64,000 nucleotides of DNA, taken from NCBI RefSeq assembly GCF_037081835.1, contig NZ_CP146516.1:1015501-1079500 (forward strand). Reading direction: 5' to 3'. Origin of the DNA: Spirobacillus cienkowskii. Lineage in GTDB: Bacteria; Bdellovibrionota_B; Oligoflexia; Silvanigrellales; Silvanigrellaceae. Every line of letters starts with the position of its first letter. The stretch's first letter is position 1. The notes under the pieces are model-generated. The model searched no databases and was not told where the DNA came from. It saw nothing but the letters and a program-made list of their open reading frames with translations. Below are positions 3,992 through 19,994 of this stretch, in pieces. Made by a program: the position numbers and the translations under genes.

Positions 3992-5275
3992 ATGTCTTTC
4001 GATCCGCTTAACGCACCAAAGCTTGCAATGTGTCCACAATATCCCGAAGAAAGTTGGCGCAAAACAAATCCTGAAAGTTTCTTTTTGCCTGAATCTGAGG
4101 TGTTAAATTTTCAGGGTGGCTCTATTTTAGACACTTGCGACAAAAAATTTTTTCCATGGAAAGTTTCTTACCGAGCATTTGATGAGCAATTTTCTCAATT
4201 ACAAAAGCTTGATGTGTTATTAGGAAATAATGGAAAACAGTCTTTATTTAAAGAACTGCATCGTATTATTTTTGTAGAAATAAATCATGGTTCTGTTGAA
4301 GCCTATACTGCAAAACAACTGAAATCTTTTGTTGAAATTTCTTCGAGCCCCTATGACGTTGAATCTGTCGCCCCAAGAAGTGATATTGGTTTTGCTTTAG
4401 GCAGTCGCTTAAAATTAAGCTCTCCTCATGAAATTAAAATTAGAGTTGAGTCTGTAAATCAAGAAATTCCGTTATTAATTATTGCAAACAATTTATCGCC
4501 CTCGTTTAATCAATCTTATACCGCTTTAAAGTGTGTGATTGCAGAAGCAAGTACTGTTGATTTTGCATTATTTGATGGTGCTGCGGGATTTGCTTATTTG
4601 CGACACACCTTAGAACTCGAGAGCCATGCGACTTTAAAACAGCTTTGGTATCACAATTCAGATCTTAACGTAAAAAATGCAACAGTTCTCCTAGAGCGAA
4701 TTGTAAAACTTAGTGACCAGGCAAAATTTTACGATTGCCAACTTTTTATTCCGCAGGGGCAGTGTCGGGTGACTTCAAACATTTTAGTTGAAGGAGCGCA
4801 TGTTGAAGTGAAGTCTGCCGCAACAGTGATTGCTTTAAATGGAAAGTTTGATTACGAACCCATTCAGCATCACAAAAAGCCGCACACCAGTTCTCAATTG
4901 AATTTAAAAATGATTCTTGCAGGGAGAAGTCGTTCTGTTTTTCAAGGATTGGTTGTTATCGATAAAAGTGCACCTAAAACAACGGCATTACAACTGAATA
5001 AAAATCTTTTGTTGAGTAAGAATGCACGAGTTGATGCGTCTCCACGTCTTGAAATTTTACCGAATGATGTTGTGTGCAAGCATGGTAGTGCAACCGGAGA
5101 AATTGATAAAAAGCAGTTGTATTATTTAGCGACTCGTGGTTTTTCTCAACGCGAAGCGCAACAGATGATTGTTAAAAGCTTTGCATTAGAAGCTTTATTG
5201 CATTTAGAAGAAGAGCATGTATTTTCTTCTTTGGCAGAATGCATGGTTGATATTCATCTTTCTAAATTAAATTAA
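3992..5275 (+). CDS. sufD: Fe-S assembly protein SufD
   Basis: Partner of SufB in the scaffold complex. The C-terminal half carries the SufB/SufD beta-helix pattern and ends in YYLATRGFSQREAQQMI, a clear SufD hallmark. I chose ATG 3992, which has a GAAGGGGTGGG Shine-Dalgarno region before it. An in-frame TTG at 3959 would overlap sufB by 29 bases without a reason. The N-terminal half is divergent, as is common in SufD. Length is 427 aa. Confidence 0.93.
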   Translation: MSFDPLNAPKLAMCPQYPEESWRKTNPESFFLPESEVLNFQGGSILDTCDKKFFPWKVSYRAFDEQFSQLQKLDVLLGNNGKQSLFKELHRIIFVEINHGSVEAYTAKQLKSFVEISSSPYDVESVAPRSDIGFALGSRLKLSSPHEIKIRVESVNQEIPLLIIANNLSPSFNQSYTALKCVIAEASTVDFALFDGAAGFAYLRHTLELESHATLKQLWYHNSDLNVKNATVLLERIVKLSDQAKFYDCQLFIPQGQCRVTSNILVEGAHVEVKSAATVIALNGKFDYEPIQHHKKPHTSSQLNLKMILAGRSRSVFQGLVVIDKSAPKTTALQLNKNLLLSKNARVDASPRLEILPNDVVCKHGSATGEIDKKQLYYLATRGFSQREAQQMIVKSFALEALLHLEEEHVFSSLAECMVDIHLSKLN

Positions 5276-5292
5276 AAAAAGTAGTTTTTGTT

Positions 5293-5628
5293 ATGTCTTT
5301 TTTTAGAGTTTGTGAACTTAGTGAATTGCCTTTTGAAAAACCAACTCAATTTTTGGTAGATGGCTTAGAAATTTTATTGGTAAAATCCTTGCACTTTGAT
5401 AAAGTTTGGGCGTTCGATAACAATTGTAATCATGCTGACAAGCCTCTTGAAAAAGGCAAATGGAATGCAGAGGCAGCAGAAATAACATGCCCCTTTCATA
5501 AGGCAGTTTTTTCTATTGTTGAGAGGGGTGCTGTAAAAGCCCCTCCAGCATGTGTTCCATTAAACGTATATTCTGTAGAAATACGGGTAGAGCAAGATGC
5601 AAGTGTCATCTATGTTTCGCTCGATTAG
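5293..5628 (+). CDS. Rieske-type [2Fe-2S] protein in the suf operon
   Basis: Small (111 aa) soluble Rieske ferredoxin. The cluster ligands are visible as C45-x-H47 and C66-x2-H69 (CNHADK and CPFHKAVF). The fold resembles the NirD/ferredoxin-component Rieske group. It starts 17 bases after sufD. Rieske genes recur next to suf genes in several phyla, where an electron-transfer role in cluster assembly is suspected but not settled. It has no membrane anchor and no partner oxygenase here. Confidence 0.88.
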   Translation: MSFFRVCELSELPFEKPTQFLVDGLEILLVKSLHFDKVWAFDNNCNHADKPLEKGKWNAEAAEITCPFHKAVFSIVERGAVKAPPACVPLNVYSVEIRVEQDASVIYVSLD

Positions 5629-10639: not shown

Positions 10640-12535
10640 GTGAATAATAATAAAATCAAATACTTAAATTTAGCTGCTAGAGCTAAAAAATTTCACTTTA
10701 AATCTCAATGCCTTGCTTACGTTTTTTTTCCTATTATTATTGCACCATTACTATCTGGTTGTCAGTCTAGTATGCGTAATAATCAAATTTTAAAAATTCC
10801 ATCTCCGACCTCAGAATTGGCTATTGAAAACAATACAAAAAGCACAATGCAAAATCCTTTATTGCAAAAAACTGAACAAAAAGAAACGGATACCAAGAAG
10901 ACTCCGGCAAATTATGAAAACTCTTCTCAATTTGATTCTCATGAATCCGCATATGCTCCATTAAGTGGAGAGCCTATCTTAGACGAAGAGAACAATGCAA
11001 ACACGGATGAAAATTCTCTAGCTGTTCCGGACGATGAGTTGCTAGACTCAGAAAACTTGGTCTCAACCGACTCTGATGAAGCACTTTCTATAGACTTGCC
11101 TTTAAATTCAATTGACTCCGAATCTGCAGGGTTGATGGACGATAACATTTTGTTATGTGAGGACAATGTTTACTATAAATCTTGGAAAGAACAATTTGAT
11201 TCAAAATGGCTTGCAGAAAATAGAAAAAAATTTAAATCTACCAGCTCTCTCCAAAAAATGTTAAATCAAGCAAGAAGCAATGAATTTATTAAAATGGCTT
11301 ATCCATCAATCGAAAAAACAGGATTTGATTTTCCAGTTGTCATTAATAATCAAGTTTTACAATGGATTAATTATTTTAAAAATAATGGTAGAAAAAGTTT
11401 TGTTGTGTGGTTAACTCGTGGTCGTTTTATAATTCCAGAAATGGAAAAAACATTAGAAGACTATGGATTACCAAAAGATTTGGCTTACTTATCTATGATT
11501 GAATCGGGCTATAGCCCTAAGGCTCTCAGTTATGTGGGTGCTGTTGGGTTTTGGCAATTTATGCCTGCAACGGCGCGTGAAAATGGTTTAAAAATTAACG
11601 ATTATATTGATGAGAGACGCGATCTTAAAAAGTCGACCAAAGCTGCAGCCAATTATTTAACCAATTTGTATAACCAATTTGGCAGTTGGCATTTAGCGGC
11701 TGCAAGTTATAACGGCGGCCCAGGTTTAGTGAGAAGAACGTTAAGAAACTACGGTAGTGATTCTTCTTTTTTTGAGCTCACCTCGATGGGTGTTGTGAAT
11801 CGCGAAACGGCGGATTATGTTCCAAAACTGATTGCTGCCATGATTATTGCTAAAAATCCTGAGAAATTTGGTTTTGACATTAATGAAAGCAATCCACCAT
11901 CCGCAACAAAAACAATTGAGATCAGTCGCTCAATTGCACTTACCGATTTGGCAAAGAAGCTAAACATCGATAAAACAGTTTTAGAAGCGCTCAATCCTGA
12001 GTTACGCTTAGGGATCACACCACCTCCCGCTGCAACGTCAGAAGGCAAATTTGAACTTGAGGTTCCGGCAAGCCAGTATGAGCATGCGATGCTTGCCATA
12101 AACTCAATTCCAGCGGCATCAGATAAGTATTTGATTGCGGCGCGGATTAAAAGGCGCGAAACTGTGACCGCGTTTGTCTCAAGATATCGCTTAAATGCAT
12201 CGTCTGTATTGCGTGCGAATTCTCATTTGAAACTAAACACCAAGCTTCGTAAGGGGCAGGTTGTGTATATTCCTGTATCATTAGGCACAGGGCAATACGA
12301 TCGCTTAACAAGCAATAAATTTTTGGCAGCAAAAAAGAATTCTAAAAAATATGCAGCAATAAAAGTTGCTCACGCTAAAAATTTAAATAAAAAAACAACC
12401 CGTGTTGCTGTAAAAACAAAAAAACACAATCAATCGGTTGCGCTTTCTTCTAAAAAAATAAAGTCAGATAAAACGGTGCACAAACCATCGTCCGCACCAA
12501 AACAAAAAAAGAATATTCAACATTCCTACCATTGA
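10640..12535 (+). CDS. mltD: Lytic transglycosylase lipoprotein with LysM (MltD-like)
   Basis: Cleaves peptidoglycan glycan strands in the periplasm. The signal sequence ends in a lipobox LLSG|C with the lipidated C41. A long acidic linker (about 60-165) follows, then the SLT domain with the catalytic Glu in SMIESGYSP and the motifs AVGFWQFMPATA and AAASYNGGPG. One LysM-like segment lies near residues 500-550 and another degenerate one before it. The C-terminal 80 residues are Lys-rich. The GTG start has ACGGAG 7 bases upstream. Confidence 0.92.
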   Translation: MNNNKIKYLNLAARAKKFHFKSQCLAYVFFPIIIAPLLSGCQSSMRNNQILKIPSPTSELAIENNTKSTMQNPLLQKTEQKETDTKKTPANYENSSQFDSHESAYAPLSGEPILDEENNANTDENSLAVPDDELLDSENLVSTDSDEALSIDLPLNSIDSESAGLMDDNILLCEDNVYYKSWKEQFDSKWLAENRKKFKSTSSLQKMLNQARSNEFIKMAYPSIEKTGFDFPVVINNQVLQWINYFKNNGRKSFVVWLTRGRFIIPEMEKTLEDYGLPKDLAYLSMIESGYSPKALSYVGAVGFWQFMPATARENGLKINDYIDERRDLKKSTKAAANYLTNLYNQFGSWHLAAASYNGGPGLVRRTLRNYGSDSSFFELTSMGVVNRETADYVPKLIAAMIIAKNPEKFGFDINESNPPSATKTIEISRSIALTDLAKKLNIDKTVLEALNPELRLGITPPPAATSEGKFELEVPASQYEHAMLAINSIPAASDKYLIAARIKRRETVTAFVSRYRLNASSVLRANSHLKLNTKLRKGQVVYIPVSLGTGQYDRLTSNKFLAAKKNSKKYAAIKVAHAKNLNKKTTRVAVKTKKHNQSVALSSKKIKSDKTVHKPSSAPKQKKNIQHSYH

Positions 12536-12577
12536 TTTTTAATTTAAAACTATGCTACACAGGCCAAGTCCACCTCA

Positions 12578-12667
12578 GGAGAGCTGGCAGAGTGGTTGAA
12601 TGTACCTGATTCGAAATCAGGCGTGCTCGCAAGGGTACCGAGGGTTCGAATCCCTCGCTCTCCGCCA
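12578..12667 (+). tRNA. tRNA-Ser (anticodon CGA)
   Basis: 90-base class II tRNA with a long variable arm. The acceptor GGAGAGC pairs with GCTCTCC. The anticodon stem CCTGA/TCAGG encloses TTCGAAA, giving anticodon CGA at 12612-12614. The T arm contains GGTTCGAATCC, and the CCA end is encoded. It reads UCG codons. Confidence 0.97.
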
Positions 12668-12699
12668 ATTTCTACTTTTAATCAAAAACTGGAATTATT

Positions 12700-13098
12700 A
12701 TGAAATACAGACTTAGGTTCGCGGCTGTATTAGTTGCTGTTATATCTTTCGTTGGTGTGGCTCACGCCGATATGGTGTTCCAAAAACAAGGCGACGCGTC
12801 CGTTGTTCTTACCATCAAAAATGATAACACAGCGACCATTACAAAGGCCAAGCCAGGAAAAAAGGGAATTAAAACAAACTTGATTGAAGGAAAAGTTGAA
12901 GGTCAAGGTGCTTCGCTTATTATTGTTCGCGAAGAAGGCGATGTATGCCCTTCTGTTTCTGTTAAACTTTATAACGATGTTAAACTTGGTGAGAATATGG
13001 TTGCAAAAGTTCGTAACATGTTTGAAGAAGTAGGATCTGCCCGTAAGCATTGTGCTGCAGTGCGCGTTATTGATGGTTCATATTCTCGCGTAAAATAA
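12700..13098 (+). CDS. Small secreted protein of unknown function
   Basis: 132 aa with a clear signal peptide (residues 1-23, cleaved after VAHA). The mature part is Lys-rich with two cysteines that may form a disulfide. No known domain is recognised. Base composition is more GC-rich than the secreted family upstream, and the codon pattern looks like a conserved, well-expressed gene. It lies 32 bases after the tRNA-Ser gene. Confidence 0.8.
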   Translation: MKYRLRFAAVLVAVISFVGVAHADMVFQKQGDASVVLTIKNDNTATITKAKPGKKGIKTNLIEGKVEGQGASLIIVREEGDVCPSVSVKLYNDVKLGENMVAKVRNMFEEVGSARKHCAAVRVIDGSYSRVK

Positions 13099-13212
13099 TT
13101 AAGGCACCTAAACTAATTCTTGAGCCCATTTCCGAAAAAGTAATGTTGGCTAAGGTTCAAAAGAAAATCCCCCATCTTCCTCACATTTAAAAAGTAGTAA
13201 ATTCGTGCAAAA

Positions 13213-13983
13213 TCACAGTAACTTAACATTTGTATCAGAAACACACTCTTTCCAACTCGATGGAAAATCAAATGTTTCTTTTTTGTTTGATATGCGTTCG
13301 ATTTCTGCTTTGCCATCTTTGTGAAAATAAAACTTTAAATAGTAAATTGCTTTTTCACTTTTTATGATTTCAGGCAAAAAAACAGGGGAGCACACTCCCC
13401 CGATATTTCTTGCTGAAGGAACAAGCAGCATTTGGACCTTTCGCTCTTTGACTTTTTTACCAAGTTCGATACAAAATTCGTAATCGTTGGAAGTCAGTTT
13501 GTCATGAAGCTGCAACTGACTTCTAAAATCGAGAACGACTTTGCTCTTTACTTCGCAAGCAAACATCTTTCGATCGATAGTGATAAGATTTGTTTTTGGG
13601 TTAATTTTAAACTGATATTGTATTCGTCGCCATTGATGAAAAAAAGTTTCATAAATCGATGTTTTTTCATCGGTAGCGGAATACCAAACACCATAACTAT
13701 TTCCATCACCAAATCGACCAAATGTATAGGGAGGATTAAATGCGTCACTTATACATGATCCATGCGCTTTACCATAATCAAATAGTCTGTTTTTTTGAGG
13801 AAACTCATGTGAAACTCCGCTTGTGATATTTTCTGCTCTTTGTAAGATATCATGTGCGAAGTCAGAGTCTACGTTCAAATCATCAAATAAATCTTGCGAA
13901 TGATAAATTGTAAAAATATTACGATAGACGATGCCTTCAAATTCCGTTTTTAAATCGAATAATCCCTCAAACTCTTTCATCAT
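13213..13983 (-). CDS. RES-domain toxin
   Basis: 256-aa protein of the RES family, toxins that deplete or modify with NAD. The conserved Arg-Glu-Ser set is visible: R90 in TFGRFGDG, E112 in TSIYETFF and S190 in VPSARN, with YGVWYSA between. ATG 13983 overlaps the upstream stop as ATGA, so translation is probably coupled to the antitoxin; an in-frame GTG at 13992 is an alternative. The protein is longer than typical RES proteins (about 150-230 aa) because of N-terminal and C-terminal extensions. Confidence 0.85.
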   Translation of the reverse strand: MMKEFEGLFDLKTEFEGIVYRNIFTIYHSQDLFDDLNVDSDFAHDILQRAENITSGVSHEFPQKNRLFDYGKAHGSCISDAFNPPYTFGRFGDGNSYGVWYSATDEKTSIYETFFHQWRRIQYQFKINPKTNLITIDRKMFACEVKSKVVLDFRSQLQLHDKLTSNDYEFCIELGKKVKERKVQMLLVPSARNIGGVCSPVFLPEIIKSEKAIYYLKFYFHKDGKAEIERISNKKETFDFPSSWKECVSDTNVKLL

Positions 13984-14384
13984 CCTGCGCACCTTATATA
14001 ATCAAGTCTTCTGCGTACAAATGCTAAACGTTCATACGAAAGACTAGGATTTTCTAATATAAAATCGATTGGAACCAAGCCTCCAAGATCTTCTTGTGGT
14101 TTACTCATCCAAGCATAAACAATTTCGCGATTATAAGGGAATAATATTCTTAAGTTTTTATGAATTCCTAGTAGTAGGCCAACTCGATTTTTTTTATCAA
14201 CATCTTTGGGAATGAGTTGTTCTTTTTCAAGCTTAATCAATCTTTGTCTATAGTTTGGTAAGCCAAGTAGCCCAGCTTGCTGCTCTCTATTGAAACCGTA
14301 CAGGTGTGCCATTGTCCAAAATGCTTTTCCTAATACCCGTTCTTCTGAAAGGTCATGTTTTTTCTTAGTATTTTTATTTTCCAT
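13980..14384 (-). CDS. Xre/MbcA/ParS-type antitoxin
   Basis: 134-aa partner of the RES toxin. The order helix-turn-helix-like N-terminal region (AGLLGLPNYRQRLIKLE) then the DUF2384-like toxin-binding part (RVGLLLGIHKNLRILF...WMSKPQEDLGGLVPIDFI) fits the COG5642-type antitoxin. The start ATG 14384 has AAGGGGG 4 bases upstream; the longer frame from 14426 runs across the operator. It precedes the toxin and overlaps it by 4 bases. It probably represses its own promoter through the two palindromes upstream. Confidence 0.85.
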   Translation of the reverse strand: MENKNTKKKHDLSEERVLGKAFWTMAHLYGFNREQQAGLLGLPNYRQRLIKLEKEQLIPKDVDKKNRVGLLLGIHKNLRILFPYNREIVYAWMSKPQEDLGGLVPIDFILENPSLSYERLAFVRRRLDYIRCAG

Positions 14385-14414
14385 AAAACCCCCTTTGAGG
14401 TTTGTCACCCTTAT

Positions 14415-14482
14415 GTATGTTATCATACGGTGTTTTATTCATAAAATAAAGCGATATTTTAACATATCGTATGTTTTCATAC
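14415..14482 (-). promoter_or_regulatory. Paired operator palindromes of the toxin-antitoxin operon
   Basis: Two copies of GTATG-N4-CATAC occur at 14415-14428 (spacer TTAT) and 14469-14482 (spacer TTTT). Their starts are 54 bases apart, close to five helical turns, on one face of the DNA. They lie 31 bases and more upstream of the antitoxin start, where self-repression by the antitoxin is expected for this family. Confidence 0.7.
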
Positions 14483-14489
14483 AAAAATT

Positions 14490-14535
14490 TACTATAAAAA
14501 AACAGGGTGATTAAATACCCTGTTTTTTTATAGTA
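14490..14535 (-). terminator. Perfect 19-bp terminator hairpin after the ATPase gene
   Basis: The arms 14490-14508 and 14517-14535 are perfect inverted repeats around an 8-base loop. A GC core (CAGGGT/ACCCTG) is flanked by seven A and seven T, so it can terminate in either direction. It follows the ATPase stop at 14555 and insulates the toxin-antitoxin promoter. Confidence 0.9.
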
Positions 14536-14554
14536 ACAATTAGAGTCGCGTCTC

Positions 14555-15994
14555 CTAATTCCCTTCCAAAAAATCTACAATATCAACAATTCTATAAAAG
14601 TAGGCACTTGTTCCAACACTTGCTGCAACGCCGCTTAAATGAAATAGCACAGGCACTCGTGCAAATCCTTTGGGCGCTTTCAGTCTTGATATTTTTTCTC
14701 GGCATTCATTAATTATATCAGAATTAATTTCACGTCTTTTAAATTTAAATTCGCAAATAAATAGTCCATTCGTTTTGGTTTGGATTAAGTAATCAATCTG
14801 ACATCCTTGTTGGGTTGTCGTTTTTGTTTGTCGGTAGGGGCCACTTCTTACAATATCTACAGGTGAAATACCTAATTTTTGCAGTAATAATGTCCGATTT
14901 TGCAAAAGCAATGCTTCGAGTTGCAGTCCCATGTGTGCATCAAAACCTGGCATGGTAGAAAGTGGTACCTTATCAAACTCACCGTTTAAAATTGCTTCTC
15001 GGTTTGGCGCAATGACTTTCAGGTAAAATCTCATATAGGGATCAGAAATTCTATACAGACTTTGCTTTAACGGCTTTTCTGTTTTAAAAGACCACAAAGA
15101 TTGTTTAACAACAAAACCTGCAATAATTAAATGCTCCATCATTTGACTTAACTTGCCGCTGTGCGCAAACTCTATACTCTGCCTAATTTCTAATAAGGTT
15201 CTTGTCCCATCTTTGAGGCTATCTAGAATTTTCTTATAAGTAGCACCTTTGGCGCTAAATAGATCGTGAAAAATCCGATCAAATTCGTTTACTAACAAAC
15301 CATTTTTTTCAAAAGCAAGCTGTTTGATATTTTCATCTGCTGTAATTTGGGGACTAAGCTGTTCTAAATACCATGGAACACCTCCTATAATGCTTAGTAG
15401 CTTGTACATATCGTAATCAGATAAGTTCATCCCTAGTGTTCTTAAAAATTCAGCACTTTCTGGAATAGATAATGGCTCTAAACTTATTGTTAGATTGACA
15501 CGCCCAAAGAATGCTGTGCTTTTTAATATATTTTCTTCTATCCAGGTTGATACCGATCCGCAAAAAACAAGCAACAGATGGCTTGTTTGCTTATCCCACC
15601 ACGCTTTGAGTTTGGGAATAAAGGTAGGATCTTTTGCGCCCATCCATGAAATTTCATCAAATAGGATAATATCACCTGGCTTTATATGTAGACTTAAATG
15701 CTCAAAAGCATCACTCCAGTCGTGAAAAATTATAGACGGAATTTTTAGTATCAATGATAATTGTCTGGCAAAATGATCCCTTTGCTCTTGCGCTGATATC
15801 CCCTCTTGAGGGGCAAGTCCTGCAAAACTCCAAAATGTTTGGTGTCTAATTTTTTTGGAAAACTCAAATATAAGTCTACTTTTTCCAATTCTGCGGCGCC
15901 CTTTAACAACTACGAGGCTTGGTTTTTTCTTTTTATACAAGATGTCTAGGCGTTCGAATTCATCTTTACGGCCAATAAATATCGATTTTGACAT
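14555..15994 (-). CDS. DUF234-type AAA ATPase with nuclease-like C-terminus
   Basis: 479-aa protein of the archaeal-type ATPase/DUF234 group. The P-loop is GRRRIGKSRL (about residue 31-40), Walker B is IILFDEISWM, a winged-helix part follows, and the C-terminal DUF234 segment has a PD-(D/E)xK-like set (IDYLIQTK...FICEFKFK). The start ATG 15994 has AGGGG 4 bases upstream. The biological role of the family is unclear; a link to mobile or defence genes is often suspected. It sits beside a toxin-antitoxin pair and a decayed gene in an accessory block. Confidence 0.85.
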   Translation of the reverse strand: MSKSIFIGRKDEFERLDILYKKKKPSLVVVKGRRRIGKSRLIFEFSKKIRHQTFWSFAGLAPQEGISAQEQRDHFARQLSLILKIPSIIFHDWSDAFEHLSLHIKPGDIILFDEISWMGAKDPTFIPKLKAWWDKQTSHLLLVFCGSVSTWIEENILKSTAFFGRVNLTISLEPLSIPESAEFLRTLGMNLSDYDMYKLLSIIGGVPWYLEQLSPQITADENIKQLAFEKNGLLVNEFDRIFHDLFSAKGATYKKILDSLKDGTRTLLEIRQSIEFAHSGKLSQMMEHLIIAGFVVKQSLWSFKTEKPLKQSLYRISDPYMRFYLKVIAPNREAILNGEFDKVPLSTMPGFDAHMGLQLEALLLQNRTLLLQKLGISPVDIVRSGPYRQTKTTTQQGCQIDYLIQTKTNGLFICEFKFKRREINSDIINECREKISRLKAPKGFARVPVLFHLSGVAASVGTSAYFYRIVDIVDFLEGN

Positions 15995-16160
15995 AGTACC
16001 CCTATTCTGCTCAAAATGAGTTTTATTATATGTTGAGCATAGTATTAAGTCAAAAAAAATGCTCAAAAAGATACTTTTTGTTTTTTGAGCAATAACTATG
16101 TTGATTGCTATGTTTTATCAGTTTTTTAATTAATTTAATCTATAATTTTAATTAATTTTT

Positions 16161-16492
16161 CTAAAAAGTAACTTGCTCTAAGCTTGATATCTCAAGAGAG
16201 CTTGATAGCCAAGCATTTCTGATGCCATTATTTTTATCTTTATCTCCCGAGATATCTATATTATCATAAGAAAATTTTGTGAAATATTTTTGAAATTTTT
16301 TTATTTCAACTTCTTTTGTTTAGTCTATTAAGCTCCAAGCAATTTTAAATGTACAACATGGTGCATAACGTTTATTGCAATTTTCCTCATTGGAGATTAT
16401 TTTATTTTTTTCTATAGCAATAAAGCATTGAGATGCATATGTGGTGTTACTTAATAAAATAAAAAAACATAAAATAAAACAATTTTTTTCAT
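16161..16492 (-). pseudogene. Decayed class D (OXA-type) beta-lactamase
   Basis: Reading the minus strand gives a start MKKIVLFYVF (ATG 16492) that hits a stop. A one-base shift in a T/A-rich run restores SNTTYASQCFIAIEKN. Then RYAPCCTFKIAWSLID matches the OXA active-site region, but the nucleophile Ser of STFK is Cys. A TAA stop follows. The frame continues with KFSYDNIDISGDKDKNNG and NAWLSSSLEISSLEQV, matching the YGN (here YDN) and WLxSSLKISxxEQ parts. About 45 residues between the blocks, with the SxV motif, and the C-terminal KTG part are gone. It is therefore inactive. Confidence 0.85.
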
Positions 16493-16682
16493 AACTGCTC
16501 TTTTTTAAAAAAATAGTATTATTTTCTTAAAAAATAATACACTTTGTTTTGATATCTCTGATAAAAATAGCTTTGTCAATTTTTTCTAAATACATTAAAA
16601 AAAATTTTTTCTTATTTAATTGATTGTGATATCGTAAAAAATGTGGGGTAGTAAATATCAAAAATCCTCAATGAGGTGATGA

Positions 16683-17087
16683 ATGCTAAAAATAAATAAA
16701 AATTATATATATTTAACAATTTGGATTTTGAGTTTTATTTTGATAGGTGCAATTATAGGGAGTATAACTAAAAGTGGTGTGAATAGTTGGTATGTAACAA
16801 TCAATAAGTCACCATTGACACCTCCAAATTATTTATTTGGTGTTGTGTGGAGTATTTTATATACAATGATTGCAATCAGTGGTTGGGCAATTTGGCATGG
16901 TAAGTACAAAAAAATACGACAGTTAAAAACTTTATATATTGTTCAACTCATTTTTAATTGGGCTTGGAGTCCTATATTTTTTACTTATCATTTAACAGGG
17001 CTTGCTTTAATTTGGATTTTTTTAATTATTGGAATGGTTTTTTTTATTATTTTAAAAACTTTTGACATCCTCCCCTCAATAAAATAA
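16683..17087 (+). pseudogene. tspO: TspO/MBR family membrane protein, cut by an IS element
   Basis: The N-terminal four helices of a TspO protein are visible, with WYVTINKSPLTPPNYLFGVV and SILYTMIA typical of the family (tetrapyrrole-binding membrane protein). The genuine sequence stops at about 17061 (ILKTF), where an IS200/IS605 end begins; the last seven codons to the stop at 17087 come from the element. The family usually has five helices and about 155 residues, and I find no remaining 3' part beyond the element. GAGGTGA precedes the ATG. Confidence 0.85.
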
Positions 17088-17250
17088 GGGGATTCCCTAG
17101 ATACAAAAGAAAAACTAGCTAGAATTTTTCTTTGTACGAGTCGGCCTATCATGCCCGATAGGGACGACTGGCTCTGTATGCTCGCAATATATTTATTGAA
17201 GCATTTACGTCTCTGTCGTGTACAGCTCCGCACTTTTCACAGTTCCAGTG
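17064..17250 (-). ncRNA. Probable omega RNA / right-end RNA of tnpB
   Basis: By analogy with characterised TnpB elements, the guide scaffold RNA is expected to span the 3' end of tnpB and the right end, with the guide beginning just outside the element near 17061. The terminal hairpin at 17072-17091 would be the last scaffold stem. No direct evidence of expression; boundaries are estimates. Confidence 0.45.
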
Positions 17251-18291
17251 TCTTACTCCAAGCCCGATCCGTGGTAGTATTTCACTACACTTTGAGCACG
17301 TCCGAGTTGAATCTCTTTCTGAAATTTCTTTGTATATTGAAGCAGCTCTAACGGCTTTGTACTTCAACATATTTTTAAACATCCCTATTCCTGAATCGAG
17401 TGATATTCCTGATAGCTTTTTATTGCGATTCATGAATTTACAAGGAACATCACCAACTACAATTAGGGAACATTTTTTAACAAGTTTTGTTGACTCCTTA
17501 TGCAAATAGTCTTGCCGAATATTGGCAACTTTTACATGCAGTTTTCTTTCTTGTTTTGACTTTGGAAGAGAATGATATTTTTTACTTTTTGATTGTTTTC
17601 TTTGTGCAAATCGTTGGCATCTTTTTAAATAGCGAAGTTTTTTTAAAGCATTTTTTCTTAAGTTTGGTCTATCAATCTTTTCACCATTTGAACATGTTGC
17701 AAGAGTTTTTATTCCAATATCAATTCCAATTTCTTTGTCTTCATCCCTTTTAATTCCTGTTTGCTCACTTTCAAAAGCAACATTTAAATACCAATGACCG
17801 CTCTTATCTTGACAAAATGAGCCTGTTTTTATTTTTGCATCTTCTGGTAGTTCTCTTGAGTTCCAAAAAGAAAACTCACTTTTATTATAAGATATTTTGC
17901 CATCATGAATTTTAATTGCAGATGATTTAAATGGTACCCATCCGAGAGATTTTTTACCACGCCAACGCAAAAGGGTTTTAAATTGTTTTCTGCGAGTGAT
18001 GTATTCTTCAGAGACAAATTGAACTGTTTGAGAATGCAGTTCTAACTCTTTTGAGCTTCCGCTTACAAGATTATTCATTTCAAATTTTGTTAAAAAATAC
18101 GGAATAGAAACTTTTTCACCTGATTTTTTATCATCTATTAACTTAACAGGTTTATTTTTAAGTGCTTCTTGTTGAGTTTGTTTGCAAAAATTCCATACCA
18201 TATTTACAGAACGAGACATCTTTGAAAGCACTCTACCTGCTTTCCCTGAATCTTTAATTCTGTAGTGATATGTTGTTATCAAATCGAACAA
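17149..18291 (-). CDS. tnpB: TnpB (IS605 OrfB) RNA-guided nuclease
   Basis: 380 aa. The helical N-terminal OrfB part is followed by RuvC-I D191 in GIDIGIKT, a basic bridge region, RuvC-II region IVVGDVPCKFM, a CxxC...CxxC zinc finger (C332, C335, C351, C354) and RuvC-III D361 in HDRDVNAS. At the usual RuvC-II Glu position (xxVEDL in most TnpB) this protein has G280 followed by D281. That variant defines a known subset where the catalytic acid may sit elsewhere. Length and motifs are otherwise intact, so the protein may still be functional. Confidence 0.9.
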   Translation of the reverse strand: MFDLITTYHYRIKDSGKAGRVLSKMSRSVNMVWNFCKQTQQEALKNKPVKLIDDKKSGEKVSIPYFLTKFEMNNLVSGSSKELELHSQTVQFVSEEYITRRKQFKTLLRWRGKKSLGWVPFKSSAIKIHDGKISYNKSEFSFWNSRELPEDAKIKTGSFCQDKSGHWYLNVAFESEQTGIKRDEDKEIGIDIGIKTLATCSNGEKIDRPNLRKNALKKLRYLKRCQRFAQRKQSKSKKYHSLPKSKQERKLHVKVANIRQDYLHKESTKLVKKCSLIVVGDVPCKFMNRNKKLSGISLDSGIGMFKNMLKYKAVRAASIYKEISERDSTRTCSKCSEILPRIGLGVRHWNCEKCGAVHDRDVNASINILRAYRASRPYRA

Positions 18292-18517
18292 ACTCCTTTA
18301 ACTTAAAAAAAAATTATATAACAAAAATACAAGTAAAGCCAACTTTCGACAAGCAAAAAATCCTATCCTCATTTTGCTTGCTTTGTGCGGCTTTCAATTC
18401 AACCTTGCACCGTTTGGTGCTGTGGTTTTTTCAGCTCACTTATATCCTCGCTCTGAAGAACGAGGTCTTGCGCTCGGTTGCGATAAAATTTTGATTGAAT
18501 AATTTAAGGTTTTTTGT

Positions 18518-18793
18518 TTACTTAATTTCAAGCACCTTCTCGCGGCTTGTTTGGCCTTTGATTATAGAAACAGAGGATTTAGAAACCCCAAAACTTTTTG
18601 CAATTAACTTAATCACTGCGTCATTGGCTTTGCCATCTTCTGGAGGCGCTGTAACATAAACCCTTAAAAAAATGCTACCATCTGGCAAAATCTCTTGTTT
18701 AACTTTTTCTGTTTTTGCTTTAGTAGTCACTTTAATTCTGATTGTTGCTGGTATGGTGATATTTTTTAATAGTTCAGTTTTCACAATTTTCAT
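18518..18793 (-). CDS. DUF167 (YggU-like) protein
   Basis: 91-aa protein with the DUF167 signature APPEDGKANDAVIKLIA and the G-Q-x-S-R-x-K end. Function is unknown. ATG 18793 overlaps the 3' end of the symporter gene by 20 bases, so the two are probably cotranscribed. A GTG at 18811 would add six residues. Confidence 0.88.
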   Translation of the reverse strand: MKIVKTELLKNITIPATIRIKVTTKAKTEKVKQEILPDGSIFLRVYVTAPPEDGKANDAVIKLIAKSFGVSKSSVSIIKGQTSREKVLEIK

Positions 18794-19994
18794 TGACCAC
18801 TTTTGCGACACAGGTATCAGACCAAACGTTGAGCGAAGTTTCGAGCATATCGATTAAACTGTAAAAAGGCAAAATAAGTCCAAGAAGAACAATCGGCACA
18901 TTCATGCTAGCAAGAAGGCTTGCGCTTAAAAAGAAGCATCCCATTGGTACACCTGCATTGCCGATTGCTGCAATAGTGGCAATAAAAATCCAGGCAATCA
19001 TTGTGCTTGCTGTAATTTCTATACCATTATTTTGCATAAGAAAAATAACAGTTGCAAAAATAAAGGCGGCGCATCCATTCATATTGATGCTGGTGCAAAG
19101 GGGCAAAACAAAGCGGCTTACTTTTGGAGAAATATTGAGTTTTTGTTCAGCCACTTCCATTGTAACAGGTAAGGTGCCCGCCGAAGATTTCGTAAAAAAA
19201 GCCAAAGATAAAGCGGGAGATGCTCCCTTTATAGTTTGCAGTACAGGAATTTTATTAATTTTTAACCATAGTGGTAAGATAATTAAACCTTGTACAATAT
19301 TGGCAAGTACAATAATGCCTAAGTATTCGCCAATACCTTTAAAATCAAACCCCTCTTTGAGCTGCATCACGGTTACTGTAATAAAGCCAAATAAAGCAAT
19401 TGGTATGATTGCAATAATCCATTTGGTGATTACAATAAAAAGAGAGTGTGCGCCCTGAAAAAAATGAATAATTGTTTGCTTTGATTCAAGCTCTGGAATG
19501 TAGCGAATGGCTGCGCCAATTACAACAGAAATTAATAAAACCGACATGACTTGATGCTCTAAAAATGGAGAGAACAGGCTTGTCGGTAAAATATTTAAAA
19601 TGTGCGTTAAATAATTTTGGTTAGTATATGCTGTAAGAGGCTCAGAAAGAGCTGTTATTTGGACGCGGCTAGGTTGGATTATCCAATATAACAAGCAGCT
19701 TATGGATGCTGCAATGAGAGTTGTTCCCAGGGTATAAAATAATGTAAGCCGCCAGATTTTTTTGGTGGAGGCGTCAGAGCGGTAGCTCGACATGGTGACA
19801 ATGAGAGACAGAGAAATAACGGGTAAGCTTATAAATTTAAAAATTTTTATAAAGGCATCTGACACAAAAATACCAATGCTTTGAAATGTGCTGCTTGATG
19901 AAAGTCCACAGGCAATGCCCAATAAAATCATGAGCAAGTATGCCAAAGGTTTTATAAAAATCTTTAAATTTTTTAGAGGGTATGAAAAGAGCAT
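18774..19994 (-). CDS. Dicarboxylate/amino acid:cation symporter (DAACS family)
   Basis: 406-aa inner-membrane transporter of the GltP/DctA/SstT family, driving uptake of dicarboxylates or acidic amino acids with H+ or Na+. The re-entrant loop motif (KSSAGTLPVTM), the CTSINMNGCAAF helix and the NAGVPMGCFFL loop are typical. Substrate cannot be fixed from sequence. AGGAA lies 6 bases before the ATG. It is divergent from the efflux pair at 20211. Confidence 0.88.
   Translation of the reverse strand: MLFSYPLKNLKIFIKPLAYLLMILLGIACGLSSSSTFQSIGIFVSDAFIKIFKFISLPVISLSLIVTMSSYRSDASTKKIWRLTLFYTLGTTLIAASISCLLYWIIQPSRVQITALSEPLTAYTNQNYLTHILNILPTSLFSPFLEHQVMSVLLISVVIGAAIRYIPELESKQTIIHFFQGAHSLFIVITKWIIAIIPIALFGFITVTVMQLKEGFDFKGIGEYLGIIVLANIVQGLIILPLWLKINKIPVLQTIKGASPALSLAFFTKSSAGTLPVTMEVAEQKLNISPKVSRFVLPLCTSINMNGCAAFIFATVIFLMQNNGIEITASTMIAWIFIATIAAIGNAGVPMGCFFLSASLLASMNVPIVLLGLILPFYSLIDMLETSLNVWSDTCVAKVVNENCEN

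Follow-up and report, generated by a model that had tools for sequence, protein, structure and literature searches.

The locus

The window analyzed here is a stretch of 64,000 nucleotides from Spirobacillus cienkowskii, a Daphnia pathogen whose complete 2.81-Mbp genome is described in PMC12321486. Between a tRNA-Ser(CGA) gene (12578 to 12667, plus strand), which forms the conserved left border, and a dctA-like gene (18774-19994) on the right lies a variable slot (12578-18774), which in this species holds an Xre antitoxin/RES toxin pair (13213 to 14426, minus strand), an ATP-binding protein gene (PF01637; 14555 to 15991, minus strand), the relic of a class D beta-lactamase gene (16150 to 16492, minus strand), which has the ATPase gene downstream, and its divergent neighbor tspO (PF03073; 16683 to 17061, plus strand). 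The contents of the slot differ in genus mates. A perfect inverted repeat (arms of 20 bp, loop of 8 bp; 14489-14536) lies between the ATPase and Xre genes and is probably a terminator.

The tspO gene is cut at its 3' end, at 17061, by an IS605-type element that begins at about 17062 and carries TnpB/OrfB (17149 to 18291, minus strand); no second tspO was found in the S. cienkowskii genome, so that the truncated copy is the only one. In a second genome of the species, a MAG, tspO is intact (158 aa), and right behind it the contig end (positions 1-190) resembles an IS transposase fragment. Mobile elements may therefore be present at the tspO spot in both strains.

A class D beta-lactamase pseudogene

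Translation of 16538-16161 from the minus strand gives, in one frame, ...SNTTYASQCFIAIEKNKIISNEENCNKRYAPCCTFKIAWSLID, a stop, TKEVEIKKFQKYFTKFSYDNIDISGDKDKNNGIRNAWLSSSLEISSLEQVTF and a further stop. The NCBIfam class D model NF000270 matches this remnant at 3.1e-22 with 79 bits, a score below the model's whole-gene cut-off of 280 bits; many OXA subfamily models of NCBIfam match it as well, and Pfam PF00905 does so above its cut-off (4.7e-8). Comparison with solved class D enzymes gives 2.2e-19 for PDB chain 6whl and 1e-15 for OXA-1. A profile built from eleven intact relatives scores 123.9 bits on the remnant, against a maximum of 7.4 bits in 3000 frames of codon-shuffled sequence used as the null, and apart from the remnant it matches nothing in any of the window's six frames. 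Homology to class D genes is thus significant, and it is colinear along the remaining sequence. Judged by these matches, which lie far beyond chance, the remnant is a genuine class D beta-lactamase pseudogene by descent. The sequence-only reading had placed such a pseudogene on the minus strand at 16161-16492, where the higher coordinate coincides with the ATG found here, and had rightly held that a view limited to open reading frames would miss it: the pseudogene is absent from the ORF lists.

Lesions and missing motifs

The remnant opens with an ATG at 16492 and MKKIVLFY..., similar to the signal peptides of its relatives (MKKIILYLT...). Within the signal peptide, a T-rich run (16450 to 16468, minus strand; also in the MAG) marks a frame shift, at which the frame of the start codon diverges from that of the mature part (SNTTYASQCF...). 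From there the main body, 16451-16161, keeps one frame, with a deletion and its stop as the sole interruption. The active-site motif (16344 to 16358, minus strand) reads C-C-T-F-K, where every aligned intact relative carries S as the nucleophile; STFK has become CTFK in both S. cienkowskii genomes, with the Lys retained and the nucleophile Ser replaced by Cys. The deletion, 47 residues by alignment, took out the S-x-V motif and the VWYSQ that follows it, and its junction reads as an in-frame TAA (16320 to 16322, minus strand), both deletion and stop being the same in the MAG. Further on, the YGN motif (16260 to 16268, minus strand) is now YDN in the window strain and is retained as YGN in the MAG, and the conserved WLSSSLEIS block (16185 to 16211, minus strand) is recognizable from the reading of the sequence and from the class D matches.

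At the 3' side, EQVTF runs into a TAG (16161 to 16178, minus strand) and the homology picks up again out of frame with FLEKLI (16167-16150), which marks a second frame shift. FLEKLI is the last alignable stretch, ending at 16150; beyond it about 105 codons that include the KTG motif are missing, and the sequence passes into the region upstream of the gene that starts at 15991. Neither the lost 3' part nor any other class D piece was found elsewhere in the S. cienkowskii genome. Directly behind the relic, a 22-bp AT-rich stretch (16128-16149) is missing from the MAG, a small indel between the strains.

With two frame shifts and two stops, no continuous reading frame with a signal peptide is left in the remnant, and all four catalytic elements (STFK, SxV, YGN, and KTG) of the window copy are, on alignment, lost or altered. 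As it stands today, the remnant cannot code for a beta-lactamase, and its predicted anatomy excludes hydrolysis. Much of this had been anticipated: the shift, the stop, the Cys for Ser, the lost 3' end, and a deletion then put at about 45 residues all reappear, and our analysis adds a second shift and a second stop at about 16167-16161 and carries the alignable remnant to about 16150. The OXA motif regions proposed earlier stand, and the analysis adds that YGN itself reads YDN in the window.

The same remnant in a second genome

The MAG contig QOVW01000084 aligns with the window over 5.9 kb, 11144 to 17061, at 98.75% identity, and the remnant occupies positions 860 to about 1200 of this MAG locus. 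The frame shifts, the deletion, the stop, the Cys, and the missing 3' end are common to both genomes, so the gene must have been inactivated before the two lineages split from their shared ancestor. Changes seen in the MAG only are R to H before YAPC and G to V in DLSVD. No further class D gene was found in the MAG or in the window strain's genome. Of the other beta-lactamase classes, class A was the one searched for, and it gave no match in S. cienkowskii.

Origin of the gene

The closest intact relatives of the remnant are class D genes of Rickettsiales, Holospora, and Legionellales, with 54-68% identity over the remnant and fragment identity to rickettsial genes that reaches 76%. Over 52 residues, identity is 71% to Rickettsia kotlanii and to the Rickettsia of Omalisus and 69% to R. 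tamurae. The tree likewise places the remnant inside a branch with Rickettsia, other Rickettsiales, Holospora, Legionella, and freshwater MAGs (support 97/95); its grouping with one Rickettsiales MAG is weakly supported (88/28).

As intact class D genes occur in four of the six congeneric genomes, the remnant could instead descend vertically from the genus's own gene, with its rickettsial similarity due to convergence or uneven loss. We consider this highly improbable, since the genus mates' genes are 29-40% identical to the remnant, far from the values for rickettsial genes, and form their own well-supported branch (100/99) at other loci with no shared synteny. In two genomes the genus's gene adjoins carbonic anhydrase; the flanking genes of that locus are syntenic in S. 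cienkowskii, and no class D gene is found there. The remnant was accordingly rejected as an ortholog of the genus's own genes, on identity, tree, and synteny. The intact copy that the sequence-only reading had proposed to look for in related strains did not appear either: the MAG remnant is equally broken, and the intact genes of genus mates are those of the other branch.

Three genus mates have a syntenic slot between tRNA-Ser(CGA)/mltD and dctA, with other genes inside. Taken together, the branch placement, the species-specific slot, and the distance of the genus copies make horizontal acquisition the best reading, and the gene was most likely acquired from a Rickettsiales/Legionellales-type pool. 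We infer the donor group, as we do the order of the lesions and the former working state of the gene. Among 80 fetched class D loci, none has tspO, ATPase, Xre, or RES as neighbors save the S. cienkowskii MAG itself, and co-transfer from a known donor, together with tspO, the ATPase gene, or the Xre/RES pair, was rejected because such neighbors are absent from these loci. Of the earlier suggestion that an OXA-type resistance gene was once present in this lineage, class D descent is thus upheld; resistance is an assumption, and "in this lineage" is better worded as a most likely horizontal acquisition.

Divergence between the two alleles

The two alleles of the remnant differ at 19 of 331 positions (5.7%), all inside 16200-16443. 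In 23 neighboring genes of the same two genomes, 4-fold sites differ at 1.5% and second positions at 0.18%, and other non-coding DNA shared by window and MAG differs at 0.3%; the remnant exceeds both the 4-fold-site rate (p=8e-6) and the other non-coding rate (p=3e-15). The differences fall on codon positions 1, 2, and 3 as 3:9:7, and this spread, set beside the low second-position rate in the neighboring genes, indicates a relic that carries no trace of coding selection. By lineage, nine changes belong to the window, five to the MAG, and five are not assignable to either.

Within the 33 kb shared by both genomes, no other 285-bp stretch is as divergent as the remnant. On a background of 0.46%, three patches of high divergence are seen: 16200-16443 and two lesser ones, of which one (14331-14516) lies at the Xre gene and the region upstream of it and the other at -5293 to -5040 relative to the window (contig about 1010207-1010460). 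Short-tract recombination from a more diverged population would perhaps explain all three. It could also be speculated that the relic forms a hot spot of local sequence change, in which hypermutation or recurrent exchange of short tracts gives a dead gene about four times the rate of the surrounding synonymous sites, but we regard this as rather unlikely. A diversity-generating mechanism was set aside for the divergent patch, as changes are of all kinds and on both lineages and no second copy that could serve as template was found.

Unusually fast change between strains, with differences so far above the 4-fold and non-coding rates, might alternatively be taken as the sign of a retained role as a peptide, an RNA, or a regulatory segment. 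This can be given very little credence, because every frame of the remnant is broken by stops and shifts, an Rfam search at the remnant gave no match, the changes show the spread over codon positions that unconstrained DNA would have and occur on both lineages, and short-tract recombination suffices in a region where the same 33 kb holds two more divergent patches. A promoter scan returned 5 candidates where 8.9 were expected from shuffles.

That the remnant is a fragment of another serine acyltransferase, a PBP or a BlaR1 sensor domain, has next to no chance: the PF00905 family includes PBPs too and there is a weak BlaR1 match (1.7e-7), but class D models do far better (3e-22), which by score rules the fragment out, a signal peptide stands immediately upstream of the domain, WLSSSLEIS and GDKxxNNG are blocks peculiar to OXA-29/OXA-1-like enzymes, and the genome's five intact genes of PBP type are situated elsewhere, so that matches to PBP repeats only, which the sequence-only reading had named as counting against it, were not what was seen.

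Proposed history

We therefore favor, with a probability of roughly 0.9, the horizontal entry of a class D gene of the OXA-29-like/rickettsial branch and its death before the two S. cienkowskii lineages parted, with no product now. Directly observed are the homology, the lesions and their sharing by two genomes, the absence of any bias by codon position, and a slot particular to the species. On this history, the gene would have entered an ancestor of S. cienkowskii by horizontal transfer and settled in the variable slot adjoining tRNA-Ser(CGA), opposite tspO. Its decay comprised the change of the nucleophile Ser to Cys, an in-frame deletion of 47 residues with TAA at its junction, frame shifts in T runs that resemble slippage, and the removal of the last third of the gene; these lesions predate the parting of the two sequenced lineages. 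Today no beta-lactamase is made, and the relic drifts free of coding constraint.

Comparison with known systems

The main text of the S. cienkowskii genome papers (including PMC12321486) mentions no beta-lactamase, resistance, or pseudogenes. The remnant is an unreported but ordinary pseudogene that stands out by an ancestry of rickettsial type and a drift faster than expected, and its description is a useful annotation rather than a new mechanism.

Of the characterized enzymes, those of Legionella that resemble OXA-29, and the OXA-1 group, are like the remnant, with 48-52% identity over the 52-residue part. It shares with the OXA-29-like enzymes the motifs RYAPxSTFKIAxSLMG and YGNxDxSGDKxxNNGLxxAWLSSSL and the EQ context; unlike them, it is broken, by Cys for Ser, the 47-residue deletion, the lost 3' end, and the frame shifts. 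The class D genes of other Silvanigrellaceae genomes belong to the same enzyme class and the same genus as the remnant but are intact, distant in identity, and placed at other loci on another branch. Nearest are the class D genes of Rickettsia, Holospora, and Rickettsiales and Legionellales MAGs, which differ from the remnant in host lineage and in lesions.

Similar decay is found there: the class D copies of R. kotlanii (locus 4703-5392) and R. tamurae (locus 4343-5123) are broken by different stops and shifts, and a listing in PMC2791219 gives "gene fragments of COG2602 Beta-lactamase class D" for R. peacockii, beyond which we found little literature on class D genes in rickettsiae. Loss of a class D gene in host-bound bacteria is thus recurrent and partly known, and relaxed need in the host niche may drive it. 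The S. cienkowskii remnant adds a deep-branching, host-associated member of the Silvanigrellales to the lineages that would have gained and then lost a rickettsial/legionellal-type class D gene, a course also seen in several rickettsiae, and it would mark gene traffic among bacteria of eukaryotic hosts in which a resistance-type function was not maintained.
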